DNA of 51,695 nt from Bacteroidia bacterium. GTDB lineage: Bacteria > Bacteroidota > Bacteroidia > J057 > JANWXU01. Positions within the stretch are counted from its first letter, which is position 1. Every line of letters starts with the position of its first letter. Shown here piece after piece: positions 345 to 51,695 of this stretch. The DNA lies in contig JANWXU010000012.1 in assembly GCA_025057395.1 (NCBI GenBank), positions 1 through 51,695 on the forward strand. Reading direction: 5' to 3'. A program made the position numbers and the translations under genes. The notes under the pieces are model-generated. The model made no database searches and had not been told where the DNA came from. It saw only the letters and a list, made by a program, of their open reading frames with translations.

Positions 345-1658
345 TTAATTAAAACTCAGTGCTTTCTTAAAAGTTTCCAGCGCCCTTTTTCTTGCGAATG
401 CATGTTCTACTATAGGTAAAGGATATTTCAGGGTACCGTATTCCGGCACCCATTTTTTTATGTACTCGCCATCAGGATCAAACTTTTTGGCTTGCTCCAC
501 AGGGTTGAAAATGCGAAAATAAGGAGCTGCATCGCAACCGCAACCTGCCGCCCATTGCCAATTTCCGTTATTAGAAGCTAAATCATAATCCATCAATAGC
601 TGTGCAAAATGAGCCTCGCCCCAACGCCAATCAATAAGTAAGTGCTTAGTAAGAAAACTAGCTGCTACCATACGCACACGGTTATGCATATAACCCGTAG
701 CTGCAAGTTCACGCATACCTGCATCCACTAAGGGATAGCCCGTTCGTCCCTCACACCATCTTTGAAATTCGTTTTCATTATTACGCCAGGATATTTTCTC
801 GTATGCCGGCTTAAATGCCTCAGTAACTACCCTTGGAAATTGACTTAATATCATAGAAAAAAAATCACGCCATATAATTTCATTCAAAAAGGCATGGCTT
901 TCAACCCGCAAGGCTTGCCTTACCACTTCTCGCACGCTAATAGTACCAAATCGTAAATGTACGCTCAAATTGCTAGTGCTATTAAGAGCAGGATAATCTC
1001 TACGCTCTGCGTAGTTTAAAAGCAAATCTTTGCTAAGATTAGGGGCTCTAACTTCACAGGATATCTCTTTAAAACCAAGCTCTGATAGAGAAGGATACTT
1101 AAAGGCTGTTCCTTCTTGCTTCCAAAATTGAGACCTATACTTTAGCGTAGGGTAAGCCTTATAGTAAAAAGAATTTAAAACTTGTAACCACCGATTCTTA
1201 TAGGGAGTATATACTGTGTAAGGCTTGCCTTCTACCGTTTCTACCTCAGGATGCTCAAATACGACGTGATCCTTATAGCTAAAGAAACAAATATTATGTT
1301 TTTGTAAAACTTCTTTTACTTGTAAATCTCTTTCTATTGCATAGGGTTCGTAATCTTTATTGGTATATACTTGCGCTATTTGAAAGTTTTGTAAAAGCTG
1401 TTGATAACACTCTACGGGTTTACCCACTAAAACCAATAGATCACTGCCTAACTGTTGCAGTTGCTTTTTTAAGTTGGCTACCGTTTGATGAATAAAAACG
1501 ACTCGACGATCTTCCCTAGGTAAGGGGTCCAAAATATTAGTATCGTAAATAAAGATAGGAAGAACAGGATAGCCACTTTTTAGGGCATAATATAGCGATG
1601 CATTATCTTCCAAGCGTAAGTCTCTGCGAAACCAATGAATAGCTATAGAGTCTGTCAC
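345..1658 (-). CDS. phrB: Class I CPD deoxyribodipyrimidine photolyase
   Basis: This flavoenzyme uses blue light to split cyclobutane pyrimidine dimers in DNA. The 437-residue length is normal. The N-terminal Rossmann antenna domain opens with HWFRRDLRLEDNASL (residues 8-22). The FAD-binding helical domain carries [15 protein letters not shown] (304-318), HNRVRM (325-330), and NNGNWQWAAGCGCDAAPYF. By alignment from memory with E. coli PhrB, W291, W344 and W367 match the electron-transfer triad, and W263 and W369 match the substrate-contacting tryptophans. The WQW pair separates it from the cryptochrome-DASH protein at 16596. Start is GTG at 1658; the Phr-type N-terminus begins a few residues later. 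It lies 30 bp downstream of the CheB/CheR hybrid sensor and is probably co-transcribed with it. Confidence 0.95.
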   Translation of the reverse strand: MTDSIAIHWFRRDLRLEDNASLYYALKSGYPVLPIFIYDTNILDPLPREDRRVVFIHQTVANLKKQLQQLGSDLLVLVGKPVECYQQLLQNFQIAQVYTNKDYEPYAIERDLQVKEVLQKHNICFFSYKDHVVFEHPEVETVEGKPYTVYTPYKNRWLQVLNSFYYKAYPTLKYRSQFWKQEGTAFKYPSLSELGFKEISCEVRAPNLSKDLLLNYAERRDYPALNSTSNLSVHLRFGTISVREVVRQALRVESHAFLNEIIWRDFFSMILSQFPRVVTEAFKPAYEKISWRNNENEFQRWCEGRTGYPLVDAGMRELAATGYMHNRVRMVAASFLTKHLLIDWRWGEAHFAQLLMDYDLASNNGNWQWAAGCGCDAAPYFRIFNPVEQAKKFDPDGEYIKKWVPEYGTLKYPLPIVEHAFARKRALETFKKALSFN

Positions 1659-1670
1659 TATATTTAGTTT

Positions 1671-1690
1671 AGTATTCTTTAGTATTCTTC
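1671..1690. repeat. 10-bp tandem duplication in photolyase leader
   Basis: AGTATTCTTT is followed directly by AGTATTCTTC. The two copies fill most of the 30-bp spacer between the stop codon of the hybrid sensor and the GTG start of the photolyase, the second copy running into the stop codon. They may be a simple slippage duplication. Confidence 0.6.
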
Positions 1691-4600
1691 ATGAACTAAT
1701 AGGAACTAAATACTTTTGAATTGTGTCTAATAATGTTTTGGCATCCACAGGCTTAGTAAGATATTCATTGGCTCCGGACTGCAAGTACTTATCTTTATCC
1801 CCTGGTAATCCATAAGCTGTTAAAATAATTATAGGGGTTTGATAGCCCTTACCCTCTTCAAAAGCTCGTATTTTAGAAATAGACTCAATACCGTCCATGA
1901 CGGGCATTCGAATATCCATAAAAACCACTTGATAACGATATTTTTTACATTTTTCTAGGGCTTCTAACCCATTTTGTGCCAAATCACAGCTCCACCCTTC
2001 TAATTCCAACAAATCTCTGAGAATTTCTCTATTGAGAGGTTCATCATCCACAATTAATATTTGAGCTTTTCCTTCTCGAGGAGACTCATCCTCCGACGAA
2101 CTGGATTTGGGAGGAGCAACAGGTAAGGATAAAGTTAAAACCATTTGATATTCCTTTTCAGTAGAAGTTTCAAACCGTAACTCACAGTGCAGCAAATGTA
2201 GTACTTCCCTAACAATCCAAAAGACCATTTCAAGGCCCTCTTTTTTAGGAAAGACTGTTTTATCAACGCTAGAAGAAATAAGCTGCTCAAATACCATTCT
2301 AGTATCTACGGCGTTAGTTGAAAAACAGAATTGTAAATAAAGCGGAAGCTCATTTTGGGGCAAAAGTTTTAGTTCTATGTTGAGGTAGGCATCTGAAGCT
2401 AGAGTAACAAAAAGTTCTAGAAAATTAACAAGTAACTGATTAATTTTTATAGGATTAGCATATATTGGAGGCAAAACATGAGGGTTATACCAGAATTGAA
2501 TTCCTTTTTCTTGAGCACTTGGAGTATTGTATTCTAGCAAGGACTGAAGTATGCTATCAATATTAACAAATTCTTCTCTACCTATGCCATCACCACTGGA
2601 CTGCAAACGAGATAGGTCTAATAAATTTCTAACAACTTTTTGTAAAATGTCTATAGGAATTTGCATCAATTCAATGTACTTGCGTTGTATTTCATTAAGT
2701 TCTGTTTTTTGTAACAGAGCAAGCAACCCCACCATGCCATTAAGGGGATTTCGAATACTGTGATTAATACTAGCTATAAGTTCCGATTTTGAATGGCTTT
2801 CACTTTCAGCTTGTATTTTTGCTTTTTGATCTTCTTGAAGACGATTATACAGGTAAGAAATATCTTCAAATACAGCTAAGAATTCTTGTTTCTCGGGTAA
2901 TAGCGCAGTAATATTGAGACGCAGCCAATAATTTTGATTCTGACAAATACAAAATTCTAAATATTCGTTATTTTCGGTAAGGATACTTTTAGCAATAGTT
3001 TGCTTAAGGGCATCTGCTAACTGGGAGGCTTCTTTAGGACACAAATTAGCCAAAATACTTACTAAAGAATTTTGAGAACTGAGTAATTCTGCAATTGGTT
3101 GAAAAGTTTCTCGGTGAGGGGCAGTTATAATTTCTAAAATATCTCCTAAAGCATTAATTTTTAGAGTTAAAAAGGGCAAAAAAGAAATTACTTTTCGATA
3201 ATTTGCTTCTTTTCGTGCTACTTCTAGAAGTAGCGTTCTATGCTCTGTAATATCAATAATTTGCAAAATTACCCCTTGACAAGTCTGCTCTTCATTTAGA
3301 TAAGGGAAAATTCGAATCTGTATCCATTTGCCATTATCGGTAAGAATCTCAACCTTTTTGGGAATAAGAGAATACATTACTTCTGAAAGATCTTGGATTA
3401 AAGAGGGGTAAGTAAATTTTTGAGAAATATGAGCAATAGGCCTTGCAATATCAACCTCTAAAAGATTAAAATAAGTACTTGCCGCTTGGTTAAACTTTCG
3501 AATCAATAGATTGGAATCCAAAAAAATAGTACCAATATCCGTAGAACGAAATATATTTTCTATATCATTACTAATAATAGTAAGCTCTCTATTTTTAGCT
3601 TGATATTCAGAATTCAGAGTAATAAGCTCCTCATTCACAGACTGCAGTTCCTCGTTAGAGCTCTGTAATTCTTCATTGGAAGACATGAGCTCTTCGTTAG
3701 TAGTCTGCAATTCTTCATTAGCAGCTTCTAGTTCTTCTATTGTATTTTGCAAAATAGCTTTAGTAGTATTGAGCTCCTCCTCCAATTCTAGCAAATGAAG
3801 GTCTACAGTTTTATTAAAAGAAATGGTTTCTATTTTCTCCTGTTTTTCGGAGGAGTTAGCAATGAGAGCGGGCTTAAGGGTAACGATTACATAAGAAACA
3901 TGGTTACGATCATCACAATAAGGGAAAAATGAGATATCATATACTTCTTCACTACCATTACTATCATTATTTTTACTATCATTATTGTCAGAATTTTCTT
4001 CAAGGGCTAAATTTACCTGCTTATAACTAAGAGGAGTTTTTTCTCTAAAAACCTTAGGTGCAGCAACTGCTATTAAGGAAGAAAGGGGCGGCTTAGTAAC
4101 GTCCTTAATATGAAAACTTGTTTTTCCCCTGGGTAATTGAAAATAAGGTGAGGGCGCCCCCCCTAAATAAAATAAATTTAGATTTTCCTCCAGAACAGCA
4201 CAAGTAGGAGCAAAATCTTCCAAAAGACGATCTTTTAGACTTTCTAGAACAGAAGATAAGTTAGGCTTTTTCAAAGTATAATTATAATAGTGAGGTATAG
4301 TACCCTTACTGTATTCAATAGTACCCTCGTTTTTTTTAAGTGAGGGTAAGTAAGAACTAGCCGTAATTTTAGCGCCTCCTTTGTACTGATAAATCTTCCA
4401 CTTTCTATCAATAGGAGTATAAAAGTCTTGAAATTTACCTAAAGTTTCACTAGCACCTAAAAATAAATACCCCCCTGGTAATAGAGAGGTGGTAAATTTT
4501 GCTTCGATGATATCTTGCCATTCAGGCTGCATATAAATGAGTACATTACGACAACTAATAAGATCAATCTTTGTAAAAGGAGGGTCAGTTAATAAATTAT

Positions 4601-5837
4601 GTTTTGCGAATAAAACCATTTGTCGAATTTTGGCAACTACTTGTACATTCTGGCCTCGAATAATAAAATATTTTTTTATTCGCTCAGGACTTATTACATT
4701 GGAACTAGGCATAGGGTAAAGTCCATTACCTGCAAAATCAATTGCAAAAGCATCAATATCCGTTGCAATAATTTTGATTTCACGAAACTGATTAATTTTT
4801 TCTTGATACTCCCTAAACAATACAGCTAGAGAATAGGCTTCTTCTCCGGTGGAGCAGCCAGCCACCCACACTCGAATCACTTCATCAGCCTTCTTAGATG
4901 CAAAAATTTGAGGAATCACTTGATTTTCTATTACCTCAAATGCTTCTTTATCTCTAAAAAAACTAGTTACACCAATTAACAGGTTACGCGAAAGCAAAGT
5001 TAGCTCACTAGGAGTAGTTTCAATAAAGTGTAAGTATTTTTGAAAAGTATCGATGTTTAAATTTTGCATGCGCCGTATAATCTGGCGGTAAAGTGTACCT
5101 GGCTTATAGTGCTTATAATCAATTTTTGATATTTGCTGCACCATTGCAATAAGCTCCGAAAATTCAGGGGGTAATTTATCAATATCGCCTTCACTTGCTA
5201 CTAAACACTGCTGTAAGGAATTAACTTTACGATTTTGTATACATTGACGAATAATTTCTGGCATTTTTTCAGGGGGCAATACGTAATCTACAGCACCAGA
5301 TAAAATTGCATTACGCGGCATGCCATCAAAACGAGCAGAATCTTCAGACTGCACTATTACAGTTCCCCCTAGTTGTTTTACCACCTTTATTCCTCGAGAG
5401 CCATCACTCCCTGTACCAGACAAAATAATAGCTATAGCCTTTTCGTGCATAGCATTAGCCAGAGAATAAAAAAATTTGTCAATGGTAAACTCTGGCCCAT
5501 GTTCTACTTCTCGTTCTGTGAGATAAAGTTTGTAGTCATCCAAGATTAATAATTTTTTAGGTGGGATAAGGTATACATATCCTTTTTGAATTTCCATTCC
5601 ATCTTCTACCTGCACAACCTTCATGGAAGTATGTTTAGATAAGATTTCTACCATTAAGCTTTTAAAGTCGGGGGAAAGGTGCTGCACTATAATAATAGCC
5701 CCCTCATTAAAATCATAAAGGTGGTTAAAGAAAGTTTCTAGGGCTTCCAACCCTCCTGCCGAAGCCCCTATACCTATCACAAAAAAAGACTTATCATTAT
5801 TATTAGCTTCCAAATTTTGATTACTTATCATAGTCAT
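1689..5837 (-). CDS. CheB-CheR-PAS-histidine kinase-receiver hybrid protein
   Basis: This is a large cytoplasmic signalling fusion. With the ATG at 5837 (1382 residues) the order is as follows. CheB methylesterase is at about 17-185, with Ser26 in GASAGG, His53 in VQHLSP and Asp145 in SGTGSDG. CheR methyltransferase is at about 230-485, with SAM loop GCSTGEE at 327-333. An Asn-rich linker follows, then a heptad coiled coil of repeated NEEL units at about 678-758. Two PAS-like domains lie at 760-868 and 876-993, a HisKA dimerisation helix has His1026, then comes an ATPase-like domain, and a receiver has Asp1308, Thr1340 and Lys1362. The H-box reads NHSIRNPLNG, so the usual acid after His is Ser. 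I cannot find normal N, G1 or G2 boxes. The reading frame extends to a TTG at 5888, but the CheB fold starts just after the ATG. No chemoreceptor or chemotaxis operon is nearby. It is probably co-transcribed with the photolyase. Confidence 0.92.
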   Translation of the reverse strand: MTMISNQNLEANNNDKSFFVIGIGASAGGLEALETFFNHLYDFNEGAIIIVQHLSPDFKSLMVEILSKHTSMKVVQVEDGMEIQKGYVYLIPPKKLLILDDYKLYLTEREVEHGPEFTIDKFFYSLANAMHEKAIAIILSGTGSDGSRGIKVVKQLGGTVIVQSEDSARFDGMPRNAILSGAVDYVLPPEKMPEIIRQCIQNRKVNSLQQCLVASEGDIDKLPPEFSELIAMVQQISKIDYKHYKPGTLYRQIIRRMQNLNIDTFQKYLHFIETTPSELTLLSRNLLIGVTSFFRDKEAFEVIENQVIPQIFASKKADEVIRVWVAGCSTGEEAYSLAVLFREYQEKINQFREIKIIATDIDAFAIDFAGNGLYPMPSSNVISPERIKKYFIIRGQNVQVVAKIRQMVLFAKHNLLTDPPFTKIDLISCRNVLIYMQPEWQDIIEAKFTTSLLPGGYLFLGASETLGKFQDFYTPIDRKWKIYQYKGGAKITASSYLPSLKKNEGTIEYSKGTIPHYYNYTLKKPNLSSVLESLKDRLLEDFAPTCAVLEENLNLFYLGGAPSPYFQLPRGKTSFHIKDVTKPPLSSLIAVAAPKVFREKTPLSYKQVNLALEENSDNNDSKNNDSNGSEEVYDISFFPYCDDRNHVSYVIVTLKPALIANSSEKQEKIETISFNKTVDLHLLELEEELNTTKAILQNTIEELEAANEELQTTNEELMSSNEELQSSNEELQSVNEELITLNSEYQAKNRELTIISNDIENIFRSTDIGTIFLDSNLLIRKFNQAASTYFNLLEVDIARPIAHISQKFTYPSLIQDLSEVMYSLIPKKVEILTDNGKWIQIRIFPYLNEEQTCQGVILQIIDITEHRTLLLEVARKEANYRKVISFLPFLTLKINALGDILEIITAPHRETFQPIAELLSSQNSLVSILANLCPKEASQLADALKQTIAKSILTENNEYLEFCICQNQNYWLRLNITALLPEKQEFLAVFEDISYLYNRLQEDQKAKIQAESESHSKSELIASINHSIRNPLNGMVGLLALLQKTELNEIQRKYIELMQIPIDILQKVVRNLLDLSRLQSSGDGIGREEFVNIDSILQSLLEYNTPSAQEKGIQFWYNPHVLPPIYANPIKINQLLVNFLELFVTLASDAYLNIELKLLPQNELPLYLQFCFSTNAVDTRMVFEQLISSSVDKTVFPKKEGLEMVFWIVREVLHLLHCELRFETSTEKEYQMVLTLSLPVAPPKSSSSEDESPREGKAQILIVDDEPLNREILRDLLELEGWSCDLAQNGLEALEKCKKYRYQVVFMDIRMPVMDGIESISKIRAFEEGKGYQTPIIILTAYGLPGDKDKYLQSGANEYLTKPVDAKTLLDTIQKYLVPISS

Positions 5838-6024
5838 ACTATCGTAACATACAACATAAACACTAAGAGCTTGGTTAAAATCGAACAAAAAATTTTTTGC
5901 ATGAAGATGAAGGCTAATGTAAAAATTTTTTACTTACAAAAGAATCAAATTTCTATATCCTATAGTAGACATAAAATAATTTTTAATTTGCTTATGCTTT
6001 TTAATTTCCAAACAAAATTTTACT

Positions 6025-10488: not shown

Positions 10489-12303
10489 ATGCACGTAATG
10501 AAAAGCTGCTTTTTATTATTATTATTTTTCTATTGGGTTTTATCTCATACGCAAGTCTTTGCTCAATGGAGAGACGGAGAGCATGTAGAGCTATATTTAC
10601 GTACAGTGGGGGGAGTAGCAGAAATTCAAATTTATAATAAAGATACTATATATGTAAAGGGACGTCCTAAGGCCAATTTTAATAGGATATGGGGCACCAT
10701 TTTAGTAGAAAATGAGGCTATCATAGATAATGATGGTGGATATATGCGCTTAACGGGAGACTGGGTAAACCGTAATCAAAGAGCCAACCCTTTTGCAGCC
10801 AGTGTTCCGCCTATAAACCAAACACGGCAAGGCTGGCTAGAATTTGAATGGCAAGATTCTAACCAGCACATATTAGGGAATCGAACAGTTTTCAATAATT
10901 TACGAATTACTAGCACTAGGAGAAACGAAACGTGGGTAAAACAATTGCGAGTAGATGCTGTAATTGATAACCAAAATAGGTTAGATCTTACTAATAGAGA
11001 GCTTAAGGTAGATGGCCAGCAAATGATTATTTGGAACCCTAACCCTAATGCTGTACAATTTCGCAATAATAATGACCCTGATATTGGTTTTATTAGTACT
11101 AATACTTGTGATAGAGGACGTCTTACATGGCACACCAATGCACGAAATTTTCCCAATCAAACTTATACATTTCCCGTCGGAGAATTTAATTTAAAACGCT
11201 CTGCCGAGCCGCTTAATCCTCTAAGACAAGTTTCTTTTAAGCCTGCTGAGCCGGAGGCTAATGCTAATGAAAGAATTTATAGTGTTATGGTTTTTGCCAA
11301 AGATGCAGTTTTAGAATGCGGCTATAAGGAACCTAATCCTGATACGGTATGTCAAATTAATAGTCGTTATAGGGGAGGGAATCCACCAACGTACTACCAT
11401 ATTGTAGAAGATATTACTGCTCAAACCACGCCGCCTAGAAGTATAAAAGAATTTCGAATTTATCATAACAATGATTTAAAGAATTACGTTTGGAACGGCT
11501 TGTTTCATTACCAAGAACAGGGAGATGGAAACATAGAATGGGTGAATACAAGAGCTACTTTAGATAGAAAATATCCGCCGGTAGATACCCTTTATGCTCA
11601 ATTAAATAGTTGGTCTAACTTTAACCGTCCGGCTTTTATTTTTGGAGTCTTTCGCCCCTCTGAAAAAATTCTTAGACCCCAGGAAGTTTTTCCAGACCCT
11701 TTACCTGATACTACTGTAATTGTAAATGATAAAATCACTTTTGCTGCAGAAGATAAAGACCCACCCGGCTTATGCTATGATTGGATTGCTGAGGATGAAG
11801 CTACGGGTAGAACAATCACATTAGCAAGTGGCAAAGACCTTCGCGTATTTCAATACGAAGGTTTTGAATTCCCTGGAAGCTACAAAATTAAGTATCGCGT
11901 TTATGTTTGTGAATTTCCAGAATGTAATACAACAGACGAAAGAAGAGTAAATGTTACGCCTAAGCGGGCAATTTTCATTCCTGATGCTTTTTCTCCTAAC
12001 GGAGATGGGAAAAACGATGTATTTGAAGTATGGCTGTATGATGTAAAAAATGTAGAATTTACTATATTCAATCGCTGGGGGAATAAGATTTACGAAGTCT
12101 CAAGGCAATTTTCCGATTTCCCGCTTAATTCAGGGCGGCCACGTGAAGCTCCAAGGTCTCAAGAATTTGGGCGTATCATTTGGGATGCTACTACGGACAG
12201 TGGCAATCCAGTACCCGAAGGAGTTTATGTGTATAAACTAAAAGTAGTATTCAACGACGGAAAAGAGGCTACACGCAGTGGCACCATAACTGTAATTCGA
12301 TAA
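10489..12303 (+). CDS. Secreted protein with T9SS type B (gliding motility-associated) C-terminal domain
   Basis: A 604-residue surface or secreted protein. The signal peptide is residues 1-26, with a likely cut in VFAQW. Residues 27-390 are a beta-rich region with no family I can name, including a possible IWNPNP/NNDPDIGFI section. Residues about 395-490 look like a PKD/Ig-type module (DTTVIVNDKITFAAEDKD, and cysteines in VYVCEFPEC). The C-terminal 112 residues are a clear CHU_C/type B sorting domain: FIPDAFSPNGDGKNDVF, FNRWGNKIYE, WDATTDSGNPVPEGVYVYKL. Such domains direct export by the type IX secretion system and surface attachment. The next two genes also encode exported proteins. The start could be ATG 10489 or ATG 10498. 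Confidence 0.9.
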   Translation: MHVMKSCFLLLLFFYWVLSHTQVFAQWRDGEHVELYLRTVGGVAEIQIYNKDTIYVKGRPKANFNRIWGTILVENEAIIDNDGGYMRLTGDWVNRNQRANPFAASVPPINQTRQGWLEFEWQDSNQHILGNRTVFNNLRITSTRRNETWVKQLRVDAVIDNQNRLDLTNRELKVDGQQMIIWNPNPNAVQFRNNNDPDIGFISTNTCDRGRLTWHTNARNFPNQTYTFPVGEFNLKRSAEPLNPLRQVSFKPAEPEANANERIYSVMVFAKDAVLECGYKEPNPDTVCQINSRYRGGNPPTYYHIVEDITAQTTPPRSIKEFRIYHNNDLKNYVWNGLFHYQEQGDGNIEWVNTRATLDRKYPPVDTLYAQLNSWSNFNRPAFIFGVFRPSEKILRPQEVFPDPLPDTTVIVNDKITFAAEDKDPPGLCYDWIAEDEATGRTITLASGKDLRVFQYEGFEFPGSYKIKYRVYVCEFPECNTTDERRVNVTPKRAIFIPDAFSPNGDGKNDVFEVWLYDVKNVEFTIFNRWGNKIYEVSRQFSDFPLNSGRPREAPRSQEFGRIIWDATTDSGNPVPEGVYVYKLKVVFNDGKEATRSGTITVIR

Positions 12304-12367
12304 TAATTAATTTACTATCATTCGTTTATTTCACTATTTTTGTAATAAGCTGGGAAAAAATTTAATC

Positions 12368-14635
12368 ATGAAAAAATATATTTATTATTCAAAATTGCTC
12401 AGAAAAAAAATAATTGTATTAGTAACTTGCTTACTGGGTACACTAACCCATGACCTCTGGGCACAAGTAGGAGTGGGGCACACTAATCCAGACCCTACTT
12501 CAAAAATGGATGTAAAGGGCCAAGTTATTATTAGGGATATTCCCCAAGATACTTTCAAAAGTGGAGAAGTAATTTTCCCTTTAGTTTCTGACCCTAATGA
12601 TGTAAGTACAAGCCGCGCCGATTTACGCGGCGGAGGAGGTAGAGTAAAATATCTTTTTATTGATACCAACCTTATAAAAGGTAATCAAACAATTGTTTGG
12701 AATTCTCGAACCAATCGATGGGAAATTGCTCCCTCGCCAAGCAATATAATAGGCACGGGCCCCATAAAAGTAACATTTAATACTCGCACTTCTACCTATG
12801 AAATAACCTTAGAAGGATGCCGTGAAGAAAATCATCTAATTATATGGCGTAATGGTAGATGGGAATGTATATCCAAAGATGAAATATCCTTCACCTTAAC
12901 CGGGTGTTTACCTAACCAGGTACCTGTTTGGGATGGTACCAAATGGGTTTGTCGAGATTTACCCTTAGGAAGCAATCTAGTTACGCGTGCGCCTATTGTA
13001 ATTCGCCCGGGAAGAAATCCTAATGACCCCGATACCGTTACTTTTGCGCAGCCAGGACCAGGCTCAGGAGATAGTATAATTATTTGGAATCCGCTTACAG
13101 GGCAATGGGAAATTCGAGAAAATCAAGATTTCAACTGGACTTTGAAGGGGAACATTATTACACCAGATAGATATATTGGAACTAATAACGCGCAGCCCTT
13201 CCGGATGTTCACTAATCGTACGGAGCGCATGCGCATTACTCCAGATGGACGTGTTATCGTAAATAATACAGCAGGAGATCCTACGGATCGTTTTAGTATC
13301 TTTGCAGCACAAGATGAATTTGGTTTGCACGCGTACGGTAACGGAGCCTTCGGAGCTGCTATTTTTGCTACCAATTCTAATACTAATGGAGTAGCCCTTA
13401 TTGCAGTAGGTAACAATAAACAGCCGGGCTCTATACCTATCCAGGGAGCGGGTATTATTGCTGGAGGTTCTAACTATGGCACCTATGCATTTGCAGAAAG
13501 TAGAGACCCTAATACAAGTAGTTTTGCTGTATTTGGTGAAAGTAATGGTATAGCTAATAATACCGCTGGTGTGGTAGGTATCACCAATGAAAGGTCTCCT
13601 AATGGACCTACCTTTGGTGTGATTGGAGAATCTTACAGCAATCAGTCTCTTTCTGCGGGAGTAAAAGGGGTGGCTTATGGCAGCAGTGGAATTATCACCG
13701 GGGTATATGGCAGCAGTTTGAGTACGGGTAATTTTTCAGCAGGCTTAGAAGGTTTTTCTCTAGCAGGTAGTGGAGCTACTTATGGAGTAATTGGAACAAG
13801 TAGCAGCTCCGATCTGGGCGCAGCGGGAGTATATGGACAAGCAAGAGAGGGAATTGGAGGACATTATGGTGTATATGGCGTTAGCAACCGTAGAACAAAC
13901 CAAACGGCGGGTGTTCAAGGATATGTATTCGGCATTGGAGAAAATGGGGCAACCTACTACGGAGTAGCAGGAGTAGCAGCTAAAAGTGGACAAAATAGTA
14001 CTTTAATTGGAGTATACGGACAAGCCCAGGCATCAGGCTCAAATGCAGCAGGGTTATTTAACGGTAATGTTTTTATTGCTAACGACCTTGCAGTTTCAGG
14101 AGTAAAGCAATTTAAAATAGATCATCCGCTAGATCCTGCCAATAAGTATTTAACGCATATTTGCCCGGAATCGCCTGAACCATTAAACATCTACTCTGGA
14201 AACATTACTACAGATGCTAACGGTTTAGCTACAGTTACCTTACCTGCTTACTTTGAAAAAATTAACAAAGACTTTCGTTATACTCTGACCTGTATAGGTC
14301 AACAAGCCCATGCGTTTGTAGTTCAGGAAATCCAAAATAATCAATTTGTGATTAAAACAGATAAGCCTAATGTAAAAGTAAGCTGGATGATTACTGCTAT
14401 TCGTAACGACCTATATCTACAGCAAAATCCTATTATGGCTGAAACAGAAAAAGAGCAACATAATAAAGGAAAGTATTTGCACCCTGAATTATACGGAAAA
14501 ACTAATACTGCGGCAATCTATCCTATCCAAAACATAGACAGTAAAGCACAAGAAGGATACAATACTCAGCAAGCACTTGAACGAGCTAAAGCTTCAGTAG
14601 GCAATAGTATAGCGAAAAAGGTGTTCAAGAAGTAG
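12368..14635 (+). CDS. Exported repeat-rich fibre-like surface protein
   Basis: A 755-residue protein with a signal peptide (1-32, cut near LWAQ). Residues 105-250 contain four short repeats in which two tryptophans flank a loop (VWNSRTNRWE, IWRNGRWEC, VWDGTKWVC, IWNPLTGQWE). Residues 270-300 (PFRMFTNRTERMRITPDG) are typical of phage-tail-fibre-like Bacteroidota surface proteins. Residues 385-565 are about eight Gly-rich units centred on GVYG, GVIG or AGVxG. The C-terminal part begins with DHPLDPANKYLTHICPESPE (585-604) and has DKPNVKVSWMITAIRND, a conserved module seen in such fibre proteins. There is no S74 peptidase or T9SS tail visible. It lies 64 bp after the type B T9SS substrate, and a terminator follows. 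Confidence 0.8.
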   Translation: MKKYIYYSKLLRKKIIVLVTCLLGTLTHDLWAQVGVGHTNPDPTSKMDVKGQVIIRDIPQDTFKSGEVIFPLVSDPNDVSTSRADLRGGGGRVKYLFIDTNLIKGNQTIVWNSRTNRWEIAPSPSNIIGTGPIKVTFNTRTSTYEITLEGCREENHLIIWRNGRWECISKDEISFTLTGCLPNQVPVWDGTKWVCRDLPLGSNLVTRAPIVIRPGRNPNDPDTVTFAQPGPGSGDSIIIWNPLTGQWEIRENQDFNWTLKGNIITPDRYIGTNNAQPFRMFTNRTERMRITPDGRVIVNNTAGDPTDRFSIFAAQDEFGLHAYGNGAFGAAIFATNSNTNGVALIAVGNNKQPGSIPIQGAGIIAGGSNYGTYAFAESRDPNTSSFAVFGESNGIANNTAGVVGITNERSPNGPTFGVIGESYSNQSLSAGVKGVAYGSSGIITGVYGSSLSTGNFSAGLEGFSLAGSGATYGVIGTSSSSDLGAAGVYGQAREGIGGHYGVYGVSNRRTNQTAGVQGYVFGIGENGATYYGVAGVAAKSGQNSTLIGVYGQAQASGSNAAGLFNGNVFIANDLAVSGVKQFKIDHPLDPANKYLTHICPESPEPLNIYSGNITTDANGLATVTLPAYFEKINKDFRYTLTCIGQQAHAFVVQEIQNNQFVIKTDKPNVKVSWMITAIRNDLYLQQNPIMAETEKEQHNKGKYLHPELYGKTNTAAIYPIQNIDSKAQEGYNTQQALERAKASVGNSIAKKVFKK

Positions 14636-14661
14636 CTGGATTTGATCTTAACTTTTCAACT

Positions 14662-14691
14662 AAGCCAGGCCATTAAGAGTCTGGCTTTTTT
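14662..14691 (+). terminator. Rho-independent terminator
   Basis: AAGCCAG (14662-14668) pairs with CTGGCTT (14681-14687) around a 12-nt loop, followed by a T run. It lies 26 bp after the stop codon of the fibre-like surface protein and should separate it from the gene at 14755. Confidence 0.8.
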
Positions 14692-14754
14692 ATTAATGCA
14701 ACTAAAAGTTTATTTTTATTGTTTTATACTTTTAAACTTTTTTAGTTACCAATT

Positions 14755-15411
14755 ATGTTTTATTCCTTAAAAGCTAATAGGGCGGGAGTAAAGATTATTT
14801 TTTTTATGTTCACATTGCTAACAAGTATAATAATAAATAATACTTCCTCCCATGCCCAATGGAGAGAAAAAACACAGTTTTTTGGAGGAGGGTTCCTAGA
14901 ATTCATTCCAGTAAAGGACCCAGCAGGTCGTTCTATATTTAGTGCCCATCCGCTCTTTTATGGTATTAACTTTGGTGCCCATTATGTAATAGGCCACTCA
15001 AACGATAGCTATAGTCTTTGCTTTACCCCTAATATTAACTTTGCATTCAACTACAGCAATCTTCTAGGAGCGAGTGTGCTCTTTCAGACGCCTTGTTTTA
15101 TTACAGCTAGATTAGGAGCTAAGTGTACTCCATTTAACACTAATGCCCTGGGTGCTTCAGCGGGCATAGGTTTTAATTTTACGTATATTCATCTTCCGTT
15201 TATGTCGGGGAATACTTTTAGCACAATTAGCCAGCCCTTTATTGCACCAGCAGCAATGGCAGAAATTACTTTTGCTTTAAGTCAACAAGCGTTATCTCTA
15301 CGCTACCATATGAATTTAATCCCTTTCCAGGGTAAAATTGATGACGGACCTAGCAGGTTGCCAGCAGACTATTCGAATTTTGGAATCGGCTTGGTGTATT
15401 TTCTTCATTAG
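14755..15411 (+). CDS. Exported protein of unknown function, barrel-like
   Basis: A 218-residue protein with a signal peptide (about 1-36, cut near SHAQW). The mature part alternates short beta strands rich in Phe, Tyr and Gly (FYGINFGAHYVIG, CFTPNINFAFNYSNLLGASVLF, GASAGIGFNFTYI) and ends in FGIGLVYFLH. A final aromatic residue close to the C-terminus and the strand pattern suggest a small outer-membrane beta barrel. I do not recognise a family. It lies 119 bp after the preceding surface-protein gene but beyond a terminator, so it probably has its own promoter. Confidence 0.65.
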   Translation: MFYSLKANRAGVKIIFFMFTLLTSIIINNTSSHAQWREKTQFFGGGFLEFIPVKDPAGRSIFSAHPLFYGINFGAHYVIGHSNDSYSLCFTPNINFAFNYSNLLGASVLFQTPCFITARLGAKCTPFNTNALGASAGIGFNFTYIHLPFMSGNTFSTISQPFIAPAAMAEITFALSQQALSLRYHMNLIPFQGKIDDGPSRLPADYSNFGIGLVYFLH

Positions 15412-16595: not shown

Positions 16596-18125
16596 ATGCA
16601 GGTTTCTCCCATTCTAGTTTGGTTCCGAAACGATTTACGTACGCTAGACCACGCCCCTCTATACTGGGCAGCCCAAAGAAAAATTCCTATTATAGCCCTA
16701 TATTGTATTGATCCTCAGGATTTTGAGACTTCCTCAATAGGCAACTTTCCTAGGATAGCGGGCTTTCGAGCTCAATTTTTGTTAGAAAGCCTTCAAGATT
16801 TAGAAGCAGAACTTAAAACTCTGGGCGGAGAGCTTTGGGTAGAATTAGGCAAGGCAGAAAAAATTATTCCGCAGTACGTAGAAAAGTATAATATTCAGTC
16901 TATATACTTCTATAAAGCAATAGGAGGCTACGAAAAACAAATAGAAGAAAAGGTAATAAAATATTTGCAAAAGTGGCCCGTAGAAATTAATAGTTTTTGG
17001 GGTCATAGTCTATATATGCCCCAAGATCTACCTTTTCTATTAGAAAATACCCCCGATCGCTTTACTGACTTTCGACAAACTGTTGAGCCAGGCACCATTA
17101 TTCACCCCCCCTTATCTAAACCATCTGCTATTGTTGCGTTTACTGTAGAAGAAAATAAGCCCCAGCAATCTACCTATAAGAGCTTTCTTAGCAATAAAGC
17201 CCAGAAGTTGCCCTATTTTGTTACTTCTCCTCTATTTCGGTTTCAAGGGGGGCAAACTGCTGCCTTAGCAAGAATAAATACTTACTTTTGGGAAACCCAA
17301 AACTTGAAAAACTATAAATTAACCCGTAACGGGTTATTAGGAGATAATTACTCTTCCCAACTTTCCCCTTATCTAGCTTTAGGATGCCTTTCGCCTCGGT
17401 GGATATATGCACAAATAGAAGAATTTGAAAAAAAAATTGTTAAGAATGAATCTACTTACTGGCTTTTTTTTGAATTACTTTGGCGCGATTTCTTTTATTT
17501 CATTTTTGCAAAACATGGAAATCGTATCTTCCAGGCGGGAGGCATTAAACAAATGGAAATTGAAAGTATACCTAATACCCAATATTTCGAGGCTTGGATA
17601 CAAGGCAAAACAGGCTACCCCTTGGTAGATGCAGCTATGCGGGAACTTGCCAATACAGGCTATATTTCTAACCGAGCAAGACAAAATGTAGCGAGTTTTC
17701 TGGTAAAAAACTTAGAACTTCCTTGGCTATGGGGCGCAAGTTGGTTCGAAAGTTTACTTGTTGACTATGACGTAAGCAGTAACTATGGAAACTGGAATTA
17801 CATCGCTGGCGTGGGTAATGACCCCCGAGGCTTTCGCTATTTCAATGTAACTAAACAAGCGGAGGAATACGACCCTCAAGCAGAATATATTAAATATTGG
17901 CTTCCAGAACTCCAGCGAATACCCGTTCCCAAAATTTACTTACCCTCTCAGCTAACTTCTCTTGAGCAGAAAAAGTACCAGGTAGAAATAGGAAAAACTT
18001 ACCCTGCTCCTATAGTAGAATTTGAAGCCTCCATTAAGAAATCCGAAATCAACTACAAAAAAGCCATACTCGCTACACAAGGACAAGTAAGAAACTCAAG
18101 AATACGAAAATTTGTTAAGCACTAA
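16596..18125 (+). CDS. Cryptochrome DASH (DASH-family photolyase)
   Basis: A 509-residue photolyase/cryptochrome. DASH proteins repair pyrimidine dimers in single-stranded or looped DNA and may signal light. Evidence: antenna domain opening [19 protein letters not shown] (residues 8-26), [10 protein letters not shown] (294-303), [15 protein letters not shown] (337-351), [12 protein letters not shown] (358-369), and the DASH-specific [22 protein letters not shown] (397-418), which replaces the WQWAA of CPD photolyases. [22 protein letters not shown] (243-264) is also DASH-like. It sits between a glycosyltransferase (17 bp) and a ferredoxin (26 bp), likely in one transcript. The nearby ferredoxin makes an electron-supply link worth testing but unproven. 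Confidence 0.93.
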
Positions 18126-34388: not shown

Positions 34389-35077
34389 TTAGAATTGAAT
34401 AAGCTTATACATAAGTGCCAATTTAATCAATTCAGCTGTATTATGGGCTTCTAACTTTTGCATAATTCGAAGTCTATGGGTTTCTACTGTTCTGGGACTT
34501 ATGTATAATATATTTGCAATTTCTCGAGTATTATAGCCATCAGCGACATAGCGTAAAATTTCCCTTTCTCTATTTGTTAAAACAATTGTTTTTTCTGACC
34601 TTGATGGATTATAATGATGTGAATCACAACTACTAAAAATAATTTTAGCAACTTGATGACTATAATATTTTTCCCCTCTGGCAACACTACGTACTGCATT
34701 CACCAGCTCCTCTATTTCAGCAGTTTTTAGAATATATCCCTCTCCGCCACTTTTTATGCTTCGAATCACATACTCTGGTTCATCATGCATTGAAAGAAAA
34801 AGAATTCTTACATAAGAGTGAGTTTTGCGAATTCTATTAGCTACTTCAAATCCACTTACATCAGGTAAAGAAATATCCATCAGCATAACAAACACAGCAT
34901 CTGTATCTTTTCAAGAGCTTCCTCCCCTGAGTCAGCTTCTCCAATAATCTCTAAATCTGCATACCTAGTTAAAATGGATTTTATTCCTCGCCTAACAAGC
35001 TTATGGTCATCTACTAAAAAAATTTTTATGGTAGCAATCTGATCACCCGTATAATTCGAACAGTTGGAAAATAACAT
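34389..35077 (-). pseudogene. NarL/LuxR-type response regulator, frameshifted
   Basis: Two frames make one protein. The first part (35077-34880) has the receiver's KIFLVDDHKLVRRGIKSIL and ends in a short off-frame tail after GEEALEK. The second (from about 34907 downward) carries DAVFVMLMDISLPDVSG with the phosphoacceptor Asp, LFLSMHD, YILKTAEIEEL, and a LuxR helix-turn-helix (LTNREREILRYVADGYNTREIANILY..RTVETHR). Adding one A to the A4 run (T4 at 34908-34911 on the plus strand) gives a smooth 229-residue protein. This may be a true loss, a phase-variation or slippage site, or a sequencing error. It lies just upstream of two glycosyltransferases; no histidine kinase is nearby. Confidence 0.85.
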
Positions 35078-46723: not shown

Positions 46724-49700
46724 TTAATTCTTTATTACTTTGGTCAAATAAGAGCTGCCTGCATCTGTTTCCAGTTCTATTATATAAACTCCTGGTAAAA
46801 GTTCATTCAGATCAACCTCTAACTCTCTATCTGCGAGATATACTTTAGGCATATAAAGAACTTCTTGCCCTAGAGAATTATAAATACGTATACTAACAAT
46901 TGGTGCACTAATTGCGCCAAGCATAATTCTCAATTTTCCGCTGGTAGGGATAGGATAGCAAACTATGTATTGCTCCATATCTCGTGCCCTACTCACTGGC
47001 GTAAATTCTTTTGAAGCCGAGCGATTAGAACAACCACTGCGAGTAATTTCCACAAAGTACCTTCCTGGTATGGTAGTAGTTATACTTCGTGTTTGTCCTA
47101 CCAAAATAGGCTCAGTTTGAGTTTCTCGATACCACTTATACGAATCAGCAATACTATCGCAGGTTAATGTATTTCCTTCTATTGTAAAAGTAGGCACGGG
47201 AGGCAAAGGAGTTACACGAACCCAAACTGAATCTGAAATAAGACTAAGGTTACAGGCGGGTATGCGCACCGTCACCTTCACAAACTGGGTTCTTGCCGGC
47301 TTAAAAGAATACACTGCCGAGGCAGTAACAGTACCATCACTCCAAAAATATTGAGCACCAGTAGGGTAGGTACCAATTGCTGCCAAAGTAATACTCGCCC
47401 CTTGGCAAATGCTTGTACTGCTTACTTCTAGCCTAGGATTAGGAAGAGTTTCAAAACGCACAATGGCAGTATCTCTTTGTACGCACCCTTTACTATCAGT
47501 TATAGTAACAATGTAGGTTCCAGGAGCTACTCCTAAGATATCTTTAGTAGTTTTTCCATTAGACCAAAGGTATGCATAAGGGGGTGTACCACCTGTTACA
47601 GTAAGTTCCACTAAGCCAGTAAATTGGTCATTACACTTAGCATCTGTAATACGCTTATTAGCTCGAATGGGCTGTAAGGGCTGAGTAATAATTACACTAA
47701 GATTAGCCTGGCAGCCCCTAGTATCAGTAATAGTACCATCATAACGTCCAGCCCTTAGCTGCACAAGATCTTGGGTAGTATACTCAAAATTAGCTTCATC
47801 TCTCCAAAGAAACGTATATGGAGGTGTACCGCCTGATACATTAATATTAATGGCACCATCACGCCCACCATTACAGCTTACATCTCGCTTACTTTGGAGA
47901 TTTGCGACTATAGGCAACGGACTTGTTAAAATTGTGGTATCTAGCCTAAAGCAAGCCGGATTACTGCTGTCAGTAACACGGAATATATAAATACCTGCCC
48001 CCAAGTCTACACGAATTCTATCTGTTTGCGCAGGGTTCAAAACACCATTATCTAGCCATGAATAAATATAGGGAGGGGTTCCACCAGTTACAGCAAGCTC
48101 GATTCTTGCGTCGCTGCGACCAGCACAAGAAATAGGAGTAACAGTCTTACTAGCTATTTTCAAAGTAGTATTCAAGTCCACAAAAAAGGATAGCCGCGTA
48201 CAAGTAGGCTGACCATTAATAAAAGTATTTATGCGTGCAGTATAGGTACCAAAAGCTAAGCCTGTAATTGTTCCTTCATTACCATTGATAACATTTGCGT
48301 AGCCATTAGGACTAGACCAACCAATAGTAGTATTTGAACCCTGAGTTACACGTAAAATAATTGCTCCATTATTAGCACCACAATCACTTGGACGCACACT
48401 TTGCAAAGTATTTATAGCTATGGCAGGCTCAGTAACAGTAAACTGGGCAGTAGCTAAACAATTTTTTGAATCAGAAACAGTAAGGGTATACGTACCAGCT
48501 GCTAAATTGCTAATATCTTCAGTAGTAGCGATAACTATGCTATTTCGACGCCAAATGTACTGGTAGGGCGGCACCCCTCCACTAATATTTACATCGATAA
48601 AGCCGTCGCTATCACCCTTACAAGCTAAGTTTAGTCGCGAGGTAGGATTTAAAGTAATTGTAGGACGCTGTATTCTTACTTCAATCACCCTATTACGGCG
48701 GCAACCATTGGCATCTATCACAGATACTGCATAGCTACCTTCGCCTACATTTTCTCGCACCAACGCAGTAGAACCATCAAACCACTCTACACTATAAGGA
48801 GGAATTCCACCTTCTATGCTCAAAGTAATCTTGCCATCTCGTACTTGTTCGCCGCACTGGCTGGGTAAAGCAATGCTAGCATTAATTATCAGCTCGCGGT
48901 CAGGTTGAGTGAGCGTAAAACTACTGATAGCAATACAGCCATTTTTATCAATAACCGTGACGGTATTAAAGCCCGCGGGAGCCACACTTAAATTTCTACC
49001 ATCAACTATAGTAAATGGAAAACGGAAAATAGTATCACGGCTAGTAGACCAAATAATAGTATAAGGACCCTCACCCCCTTCAAATTCTACTCTCGCTTTT
49101 CCATCGTTACCATTGCGGCAACTTACATCCGTTTGTTTACCACTATCTCTAAGAACTTGTACTCTATTAATCTTAAGCGGCGTAGCTGCAACCCCTATTC
49201 TGATATTATCAAAAGAAGTAGTACAATTTTTTGCATCAATTATTCGGAGGTTATAAGTGCCTGGTAAAAGGGGCTGAATAGTAAAAGTAGAACGATTGCT
49301 ATTATCTACTAAAGAGCCGTTTTGAGTACCCGCCCACTCGTAACGCAAAGGAGGAGTAGCGTTTGTGGTAGTTACCGTAATTTTTCCATTAAGCTCTCCA
49401 AAACATGCATTACCCACTTCTATAGTAGAAAATTGCCGAAGTACTTGAAAAGTTTGCACAGCAAAACAGCCATTATTGTCTGTTACTGTGAAATTAAAAA
49501 TTCCTTCAGGTAAATTACTCACTATTATGTTTTCTCCTGTAATACTACTTCCGCTACTTAAGCCCGGAACAGCATAAGTATATGGACGTGTACCACCTCT
49601 AATTGTAAAAGTAGCACTACCCGTAGAAGCACCAGCACAGCCTACATTTTGTACTTGAAACTGTACTTGAATAGGAGAAGGCTGGTTAATAGGAATAGTT

Positions 49701-51695
49701 TCGAAATAGCTACAGCCATTAGCATCTGTAATACTCAAACGATATTGACCAGCACTTAACCCACTTACGGAAGAGCTGGTAGGAGTATTAATTAAGTTAA
49801 AGTTATTAGGGTTAAAATTAGGGTCTCCTAGTTTTGTCCAGATTCTATTAGTGTATGGCGGATTGCCACCTATAATGTTTACTGTAATAGCCCCATCACT
49901 TGCACCATTACAACGAAGGAACAAGCGGCTTCGAACAGAGTCAATATTATAGGCTAGTTTTGCAAATTCTCGGATAGTAAAGTTTAATACGATAGGGGGG
50001 CAATTATTGGCGTCTTCTATTGTTAAAGAATAATTGCCAGCTACCAGTCCGCTAATAGTAGAAGCTTCACCTCGTTGTATAATTGCTCCATTTTTTCGCC
50101 AAGTATAAATATAAGGGGGAGTACCAGCACCTTCCTGAAGTACGACGCCAGCCGTGCCGTTTGCTTCGCCGTTGCAGCGTACATCCGAAGTAGTTAAAGT
50201 AGCAGCACCAGCCACAAAAGGGCCTGGCTGTCGAATTACAACAAAAACAGGCAGACTAGAACAATTGGTAGAAGGGTTAGTAGCAATTACCTGATAACGC
50301 CCAGCAGCTAAATTAGAAGGATCAGGACGAGTAGCCACCACTTGTCCATTTAGTATCCAGGTAAAAATACAATTAGAACAATTTTGATTACTTATGGTAG
50401 CAGTAGCTATAGCAGAACCATTATTTCCACCAAAGCAAGTAACATCTTTAATATTACTTACTTGCACTACTGGTAAAGCTGGGTTAGGAACATTTACCAA
50501 AACTGTATCCGTACATCCTCTCAGGTCTCGAATAGTTAGGATATAACTAGGATTAGTAACTGTATTGCCTAAAACTTCTCTTAAAACAGTAGGATTAATG
50601 GCATTCACTACCCCTGTTCTTACTACGGTTGCATCATTATTATGAAGTTTATACTCTATAGGTTGAGTTCCGCCTTCTACTTCAAATTGAATAATTCCAG
50701 TAGTACTGCCACAAGTTAAAGAAGGATTCACACGAATATTGACTATTTTCAAAGAGGCAGTTTTTATAATTGTTACTGTATTGCTTTGCGCTGTACAACC
50801 CTTAGCATCTATCACCCGAAATGAATATTGTCCCTGGCCTAAGTTAGCTAAAGTATCTCTTAAAACATTATTCTTTTCTACTCCTGTGGACCAAATTATC
50901 CGATAGGGTACCCATCCTCCACCTATTACTGTTATCAATCTTCCGTCTTTTTCATTACAAGCAGATACTGGCAAATAATTAAAAGGGGCACGCACCGTGT
51001 TATCTAACGAAGCAGTAAGAGGTTCAGCTGGGCGACGTACTGTTAGATTATTAATAGAAGTAGTACACCCCTTTCTATCCACTACAGTGACAAAATAAGT
51101 ACCTGGTGCTAAATTTTCTAGCACAGAATCTGTAGCTCCCGTAGACCAACTATACCTATATCCACCATTGCCGCCGCTAACACGCAACTTTATAGCTCCA
51201 TTCCTTTGATTATAACAAACCACATCTCTAATACTATCAGCACGTATTACCAAAGGTTCGGGTTGGCCAACATTTACCCTGCGTACATAGGAGCAAATAG
51301 CGCCGCTACTATGTACATACGATACCCGAATATCATAAGTACCTGAGGAGAGACCGGAAAATATATTATTATTAGAAGGAGTATTATTCATAAAAGTATT
51401 GCCTGCATTAATAGGGCGAATGGCATAAGAATATGCATCAAGGCTACCTCCTACTCCTCCAATTACAGCACGAACAGTAATCTTACCATCACTACCCCCT
51501 GCGCAGCTTACATTATCTACTAAAATATCCAAGTTAGTAATACCAAAACCTTCAAAAACATTTGCTGTGGCTACGCCTTCGCAGCCTGCTCCATTACGAA
51601 CTATAATATTATAGTTACCAGCAGGTAAGCCATCAAAACGAAGTCCATTGGCACTCCCTGTAAAAGGTTGCGGCGAAGAGAAACCTGGAACATTA
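46724..51695 (-). CDS. Giant SprB-repeat surface protein, C-terminal part (5' end outside window)
   Basis: The minus-strand frame stays open through the last base of the window; the segment upstream of 51532 reads on as repeat (GLPAGNYNIIVRNGAGCEG), so this is only the C-terminal ~1650 residues. I count sixteen full units and one partial unit of about 85 residues of the SprB type: a first Cys with xxGxxDGxI, then GGxPPYxYxWS, LxAGTYxVTVTDxxGC. After them is an Ig/PKD-like part (ICQGASITLAA, FWSDG) and a type A T9SS sorting domain (YPIPTSGKLRI, SLGQEVLY, VYIIELETDAGSSYLTKVIKN). SprB-type repeats occur in adhesins moved by the gliding apparatus. The N-terminus is needed to judge its full length. 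Confidence 0.93.
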   Translation of the reverse strand, partial: NVPGFSSPQPFTGSANGLRFDGLPAGNYNIIVRNGAGCEGVATANVFEGFGITNLDILVDNVSCAGGSDGKITVRAVIGGVGGSLDAYSYAIRPINAGNTFMNNTPSNNNIFSGLSSGTYDIRVSYVHSSGAICSYVRRVNVGQPEPLVIRADSIRDVVCYNQRNGAIKLRVSGGNGGYRYSWSTGATDSVLENLAPGTYFVTVVDRKGCTTSINNLTVRRPAEPLTASLDNTVRAPFNYLPVSACNEKDGRLITVIGGGWVPYRIIWSTGVEKNNVLRDTLANLGQGQYSFRVIDAKGCTAQSNTVTIIKTASLKIVNIRVNPSLTCGSTTGIIQFEVEGGTQPIEYKLHNNDATVVRTGVVNAINPTVLREVLGNTVTNPSYILTIRDLRGCTDTVLVNVPNPALPVVQVSNIKDVTCFGGNNGSAIATATISNQNCSNCIFTWILNGQVVATRPDPSNLAAGRYQVIATNPSTNCSSLPVFVVIRQPGPFVAGAATLTTSDVRCNGEANGTAGVVLQEGAGTPPYIYTWRKNGAIIQRGEASTISGLVAGNYSLTIEDANNCPPIVLNFTIREFAKLAYNIDSVRSRLFLRCNGASDGAITVNIIGGNPPYTNRIWTKLGDPNFNPNNFNLINTPTSSSVSGLSAGQYRLSITDANGCSYFETIPINQPSPIQVQFQVQNVGCAGASTGSATFTIRGGTRPYTYAVPGLSSGSSITGENIIVSNLPEGIFNFTVTDNNGCFAVQTFQVLRQFSTIEVGNACFGELNGKITVTTTNATPPLRYEWAGTQNGSLVDNSNRSTFTIQPLLPGTYNLRIIDAKNCTTSFDNIRIGVAATPLKINRVQVLRDSGKQTDVSCRNGNDGKARVEFEGGEGPYTIIWSTSRDTIFRFPFTIVDGRNLSVAPAGFNTVTVIDKNGCIAISSFTLTQPDRELIINASIALPSQCGEQVRDGKITLSIEGGIPPYSVEWFDGSTALVRENVGEGSYAVSVIDANGCRRNRVIEVRIQRPTITLNPTSRLNLACKGDSDGFIDVNISGGVPPYQYIWRRNSIVIATTEDISNLAAGTYTLTVSDSKNCLATAQFTVTEPAIAINTLQSVRPSDCGANNGAIILRVTQGSNTTIGWSSPNGYANVINGNEGTITGLAFGTYTARINTFINGQPTCTRLSFFVDLNTTLKIASKTVTPISCAGRSDARIELAVTGGTPPYIYSWLDNGVLNPAQTDRIRVDLGAGIYIFRVTDSSNPACFRLDTTILTSPLPIVANLQSKRDVSCNGGRDGAININVSGGTPPYTFLWRDEANFEYTTQDLVQLRAGRYDGTITDTRGCQANLSVIITQPLQPIRANKRITDAKCNDQFTGLVELTVTGGTPPYAYLWSNGKTTKDILGVAPGTYIVTITDSKGCVQRDTAIVRFETLPNPRLEVSSTSICQGASITLAAIGTYPTGAQYFWSDGTVTASAVYSFKPARTQFVKVTVRIPACNLSLISDSVWVRVTPLPPVPTFTIEGNTLTCDSIADSYKWYRETQTEPILVGQTRSITTTIPGRYFVEITRSGCSNRSASKEFTPVSRARDMEQYIVCYPIPTSGKLRIMLGAISAPIVSIRIYNSLGQEVLYMPKVYLADRELEVDLNELLPGVYIIELETDAGSSYLTKVIKN

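Follow-up and report, generated by a model that had tools for sequence, protein, structure and literature searches.

A CheB-CheR hybrid sensor whose kinase core looks, from its sequence, like a pseudokinase that has retained its fold, and like neither an artefact nor plain decay, was found in contig JANWXU010000012.1 of the Bacteroidia bacterium assembly GCA_025057395.1. The stretch analyzed, called the window below, covers positions 1 to 51,695 of this contig (51,695 nucleotides). The hybrid is encoded on the minus strand (1689..5837, read from 5837 down) by an open reading frame (ORF) of 1,382 amino acids; an in-frame TTG upstream at 5888 is an alternative start that would give 1,399 amino acids. 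From the ORF, its translation, and Pfam, the order of the chain is CheB, CheR, a coiled coil, PAS_10, an unassigned region, HisKA, a pseudo-HATPase domain, and a receiver. A preliminary description of this DNA had proposed a non-catalytic kinase core, and that proposal is well supported by the profile, alignment, and own-genome comparisons given below. My reading is that the receiver of this sensor would be phosphorylated by another kinase and would set the balance between CheR and CheB, and I give it about an even chance (roughly 0.5). The loss of ATP binding in itself is strongly supported.

Residues 996-1262 of the hybrid were aligned with 33 kinases that were picked from the fetched loci by similarity to the hybrid itself at an E-value of 1e-6 or below; 32 of them have a complete CA (ATP-binding) domain, and one is truncated where its locus ends. 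The HisKA (DHp) domain of the hybrid spans residues 1010-1084 (2586..2810, minus strand, as for all domains of this gene), with a Pfam HisKA match at residues 1016-1080 (2.2e-14). Its H-box reads NHSIRNPL, as the preliminary description had it. The phosphoacceptor His1026 is kept, as in 33/33 aligned kinases, and Asn stands at +4. The next residue after the histidine is Glu in 32 of the 33 kinases and Asp in the remaining one, while the hybrid has Ser1027. An acid at this position aids phosphorylation of the histidine, and a serine there should weaken it.

The CA domain (residues 1087-1250; 2088..2579) has lost all of its ATP boxes. In the N-box region (residues 1128-1152; 2382..2456), the Asn and the Lys that are found in 33/33 aligned kinases are replaced by Leu1142 and Thr1145, respectively. 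Asn1138 of the hybrid falls in another conserved column than the N-box Asn and is kept there. In the G1/F region (residues 1168-1190; 2268..2336), the DTGxG of the aligned kinases (DTGIGI) is replaced by STNAV and then a deletion. The G2 region (residues 1196-1212; 2202..2252) reads KEGLEMV for GTGLGLA, and the G3 region (residues 1222-1236; 2130..2174) reads EKEY for GKGS, so that neither DxGxG nor GxGxG is present. The earlier statement that the N-box lacks its Asn and that the DxGxG and GxG boxes are missing is thus borne out, and the alignment, in which a conserved ATP-binding Asn or G boxes would have spoken for an active core, revealed neither. Compared with an active HisKA-HATPase_c kinase, the hybrid has the histidine domain and lacks the acid after the His and the N, G1, and G2 boxes. 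What it has is a homologous CA domain without ATP-binding residues, as in histidine pseudokinases of the RetS and DivL type.

The loss is concentrated in the ATP site. Among 42 conserved CA columns, which are mostly ATP-site columns, the hybrid matches 10, while the 32 other kinases match 31-42; of 29 hydrophobic CA columns, 26 are kept in the hybrid against 24-29 in the other kinases. Aligned a second time, with 39 viral-contig kinases, the hybrid matches 6/29 conserved columns and 29/31 hydrophobic columns. The latter count has a binomial probability of 2.5e-8 against the hydrophobic fraction of the region itself (0.46), with columns treated as independent. Since these 39 kinases were picked by H-box and G2-box peptide patterns, the set is biased toward canonical kinases; the counts on the 32 kinases above repeat the comparison on a set picked by similarity to the hybrid itself. 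In the DHp domain, 19/35 conserved columns are matched against 26-35 in the other kinases, which makes it less diverged than the CA domain. As judged from these columns, the ATP site of the CA domain is gone and the core of the domain retained.

Is the CA domain still a HATPase? Pfam gave no HATPase_c match at an E-value of 10 or below in the whole protein, nor a match to any family at that level with the CA region alone. A search of the PDB sequences with the CA region gave only E-values of 0.033 and 1.1. However, when the CA region by itself was compared with 11 canonical kinases by hhalign, it reached 97% with an E-value of 8e-11 and 19% identity. A CA profile made from the 32 relatives with a complete domain scored 24 bits in the hybrid, while the 11 CheB-CheR chains carrying a CA domain scored 56-187 bits. 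A chain wholly missing the ATPase domain is rejected by these two results. The region called ATPase-like in the preliminary description does lack the boxes, and that account can be refined in that the domain is present as a diverged HATPase. Structure prediction without an alignment was uninformative (predicted local distance difference test score, pLDDT, 37.6), while AlphaFold2 with a 40-row alignment gave a pLDDT of 82.6 and a predicted template modeling score of 0.69. The first rows of Foldseek for this model were chains of RetS, ZraS, and GacS, with RetS as the best match. When the Foldseek list was realigned with VIA-align, in which rows within 1 Z count as tied, GacS came first (Z 17.0, root-mean-square deviation, rmsd, 5.5, 236 aligned), followed by ZraS (Z 16.0, rmsd 4.1, 227 aligned) and RetS (Z 15.9, rmsd 3.8, 212 aligned), with DivL 4q20_B lower down (Z 13.9, rmsd 5.6, 218 aligned).

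It was assessed whether the lost boxes might come from a frameshift or an assembly artefact, and this was rejected. The other two frames across the CA region have many stops and no ATP boxes, and the guanine-plus-cytosine (GC) content by codon position in the CA part resembles that of the rest of the gene; a frameshift or an assembly error is therefore unlikely. The frame of the hybrid stays open, with no stop or frameshift, through to the intact receiver. The kinases of the same genome give a further comparison. HATPase_c has 37 matches in this genome, none of them at the hybrid gene. HisKA has 28 matches, 19 of which exceed the cut-off; HATPase_c accompanies 18 of these in frame, the hybrid being the only one without it. 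Among the nine matches below the cut-off, HATPase_c is likewise missing from the frame of one (C37:6961-7104, 25.7 bits).

The two enzyme domains and the receiver are intact by their signature residues. The hybrid has CheB and CheR domains in one chain followed by PAS, as a CheB-CheR hybrid should, and Pfam matches over their cut-offs were obtained for CheB_methylest, CheR_N, CheR, PAS_10, HisKA, and Response_reg. The CheB methylesterase catalytic domain (residues 21-195; 5253..5777; CheB_methylest 2.3e-55) has Ser26, His53, and Asp145, and no receiver precedes it among the Pfam domains of the chain. It is followed by the CheR N-terminal helical domain (residues 225-274; 5016..5165; CheR_N 1.1e-11) and by the domain of the CheR methyltransferase that binds S-adenosylmethionine (residues 290-480; 4398..4970; CheR 2e-52), where a VAGCSTGEEA loop was located by alignment with solved CheR chains. 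A coiled coil of the type EELxxxNEELxxSNEELQ (residues 684-752; 3582..3788) is common to the CheB-CheR-PAS relatives, with stretches 39-73% identical. The PAS_10 domain (residues 759-864; 3246..3563; 2.2e-22) precedes a region that is PAS-like by eye only (residues 870-996; 2850..3230), for which Pfam gave nothing significant, the best E-value of 0.038 being to an unrelated family. The receiver (residues 1260-1373; 1719..2060; Response_reg 1.9e-30) has the acidic pair DD at 1264-1265 as well as Asp1308, Thr1340, and Lys1362. A residue check of the translation placed these three and the three CheB residues where the preliminary description had them. I take Ser26/His53/Asp145 to be equivalent to the textbook CheB triad and Asp1308/Thr1340/Lys1362 to the receiver residues. 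On this basis, CheB, CheR, and the receiver keep their signature residues. The DHp domain keeps its His, with Ser at the general-base position.

Is the dead kinase common among relatives? CheB-CheR-PAS relatives at 34-41% identity are present in the nearest genomes and in genomes of the class. The nearest genomes are of the same order (22 genomes, own included), with no genome of the same family among those examined, and the genome sets used below overlap in part. No relative with the dead kinase part of the hybrid was found by a full-length search of 40 relatives and 395 class genomes, nor one with the same kinase part by a kinase-part search of the 22 order genomes and 395 phylum genomes. 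A search of 395 class genomes with the CA region alone likewise gave no relative with a dead kinase, its five non-self matches being canonical kinases with all boxes. Scans of genome contigs and viral contigs gave no relative with the same dead kinase, and a search of plasmids (218 records, of which the best 20 were listed and three fetched) gave none among those plasmids. In all of 24 CheB-CheR-PAS relatives fetched with their flanks, CheB is followed by CheR in one chain. The CA domain is in the same chain in 11 of them; a separate kinase gene is in the stretch in seven, and neither is found in six, one of which is at a contig end. The 11 fused kinases all have the N-box Asn, and 10 have the G1 pattern and 10 the G2 pattern, with none failing both. 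Together with the three plasmid chains, 14/14 fused CheB-CheR-kinase chains keep the catalytic N-box Asn. The plasmid chains are CheB-CheR-PAS hybrid kinases of Nostoc sp. HK-01, Caballeronia sp. SBC1, and Burkholderia stagnalis, which have the same order of CheB, CheR, PAS, HisKA, CA, and receiver; they keep the N-box Asn, DTGxG, and GxGxGL, all of which are lost in the hybrid described here.

Several known pseudokinases resemble the hybrid in part. Like the hybrid, RetS of Pseudomonas aeruginosa is a hybrid kinase that has a receiver and a degenerate HATPase in which the G-boxes are missing; it is reported to be unable to autophosphorylate and to get phosphate from GacS on its receiver Asp (PMC5992135). 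The two proteins are about 21% identical over the kinase region in Foldseek. RetS is the closest precedent for the hybrid, and the losses of the ATP site in the two are probably independent. Unlike the hybrid, RetS presumably has no CheB or CheR domains, and I assume the same for FasC and for the variant of ChrS considered here. DivL of Caulobacter crescentus is likewise a pseudokinase with the DHp-CA fold kept. It is reported to have no kinase or phosphatase activity and to be a switch binding a phosphorylated regulator, and its phosphoacceptor His, which the hybrid keeps, is replaced by Tyr (PMC4211667). FasC and a ChrS variant, like the hybrid, have no working CA domain and yet are reported to influence signaling by an active kinase. 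FasC is a putative pseudokinase whose His is proposed to be phosphorylated by FasB (PMC12675982), while the ChrS variant is the product of a frameshift during laboratory evolution and promotes signaling via HrrS, with two-hybrid tests showing no heterodimers of the truncated ChrS (PMC9491836).

Since the ATP-binding residues are lost, the hybrid probably receives signals and does not make them. It would dimerize through the coiled coil and the DHp domain without phosphorylating itself. Asp1308 of the receiver would get its phosphate from another hybrid kinase of the cell, as RetS does from GacS, and the states of the PAS domain and the receiver might reshape the chain and determine how methyl addition by CheR is balanced against removal by CheB. 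The target of methylation would be a protein other than a classical chemoreceptor. The preliminary description had likewise suggested a protein that receives phosphate, with the modification enzymes as its output. This part of its interpretation is plausible by analogy, RetS being a precedent for the receiving part only, and every step beyond the loss of ATP binding is one that I infer. A narrower version can be proposed tentatively, in which a RetS-like pseudokinase takes phosphate from outside on its receiver and so switches the balance of the fused methyltransferase and methylesterase on a non-chemoreceptor protein, in a genome with no methyl-accepting chemotaxis protein (MCP) or CheW detected.

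Other readings were weighed against this one. The DHp domain might pair with an active kinase, so that His1026 is phosphorylated in trans and passes its phosphate to Asp1308, the dead CA domain being structural only. The retained His1026 and HisKA domain agree with this, as do the active hybrid kinases with a related DHp domain in the same genome (on contigs C99 and C133, for example) and the proposal for FasB and FasC (PMC12675982). However, Ser1027 should weaken the phosphorylation of this very His, no partner kinase was identified, and no kinase gene adjoins the hybrid in the window, where the nearest ORFs encode a photolyase and small proteins; such pairing is rather unlikely. Alternatively, no phosphate might flow at all, and a PAS ligand might move the DHp and pseudo-CA domains and so gate CheB and CheR, with the receiver as a docking or dimer element. 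DivL, a switch reported to have a kinase fold and neither kinase nor phosphatase activity (PMC4211667), offers a model for this, and in 13 of the 24 fetched loci the CheB-CheR chain lacks a CA domain. The strong Response_reg match and the kept Asp, Thr, and Lys suggest instead that the receiver is still phosphorylated, which makes a purely allosteric protein unlikely.

The kinase core might also be eroding in this lineage without a function, in a protein whose other parts may still work. It is known as a single copy with no orthologue found in the genome searches, and its DHp domain is diverged as well (19/35 conserved columns). An open frame into an intact receiver, ordinary GC by codon position, and hydrophobic columns kept in both alignments (26/29 and 29/31) speak against erosion, which I consider improbable. 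A divergent yet active ATPase domain, binding nucleotide in an unusual way, would be in line with the HATPase homology retained in the profile comparison. It is most improbable, with every box changed, including the N-box Asn and Lys, and the G1 region shortened. Against the reading of an externally phosphorylated sensor, on the other hand, it must be said that phosphotransfer, the partner, the enzyme activity, and the methylation target of the hybrid are all inferred. The evidence for the fold is not independent, because the model was built on an alignment of canonical kinases. The searches turned up no orthologue sharing this kinase core, so selection on the degenerate state is not measurable, and the weight of a combination seen once is limited. 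An MCP or CheW gene could also sit in the missing part of the genome.

The genome is estimated to be 96% complete, and no match to MCPsignal or CheW was found in it, in searches whose controls detected both families in seven of 14 named genomes. The receptors and CheW proteins that would make up a chemotaxis adaptation system were thus not seen in this genome. A stand-alone CheR gene and a CheB gene lie elsewhere, on contig C88, and are followed by DUF6272 and SiaC genes; this is a possible non-chemotaxis CheR-CheB signaling cluster. In the same stretch (L094:6692-10484), a second look-alike pair comes after the CheR, CheB, DUF6272, and SiaC genes, only the first DUF6272-SiaC pair having been checked with Pfam. 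Contig C99 (L176:5911-9999) carries a PAS-rich hybrid kinase that has a receiver and falls just short of an Hpt match (24.3 bits against a cut-off of 24.6). By its sequence, this kinase is a candidate phosphate donor for the hybrid.

In the window, a DNA photolyase/cryptochrome family gene (345..1658, minus strand; Pfam DNA_photolyase and FAD_binding_7) lies 30 bp downstream of the hybrid on the same strand, and the two are possibly on one transcript. The fetched stretches around the CheB-CheR relatives contained no photolyase, so no conserved linkage was seen. Another gene of this family, about 30% identical to the first, lies at 16596-18125 on the plus strand. A LuxR/NarL-type response regulator at 34389 to about 35000 (minus strand) has a frameshift within the receiver that leaves the N-terminal part in one frame and the remainder, through the GerE domain, in another. 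Three adjacent predicted surface or secreted proteins are encoded at 10489-15411, the first with a gliding-motility-type C-terminal tail by eye. A very long repeat-rich protein on the minus strand (46724-51694) is open at the window edge, and its C-terminal tail resembles that of secreted Bacteroidota adhesins, again by eye. Rfam and tRNA scans of the window gave nothing.

Pseudokinase hybrids and CheB-CheR hybrid kinases are each already known, while their combination is new and has been seen once. A literature search, with most subscription journals outside its reach, found no paper on a pseudokinase core joined to CheB-CheR and none directly on CheB-CheR fusions. Few histidine pseudokinases have a known role, and the examples compared above work on other kinases or on regulators. 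In the present hybrid, two enzymes of opposite modification activity share a chain with a dead kinase core, in a genome where no chemoreceptor was detected. This raises the questions of what the substrates of CheB-CheR proteins may be outside chemotaxis, and of whether a receiver can drive CheB and CheR without a kinase of its own.

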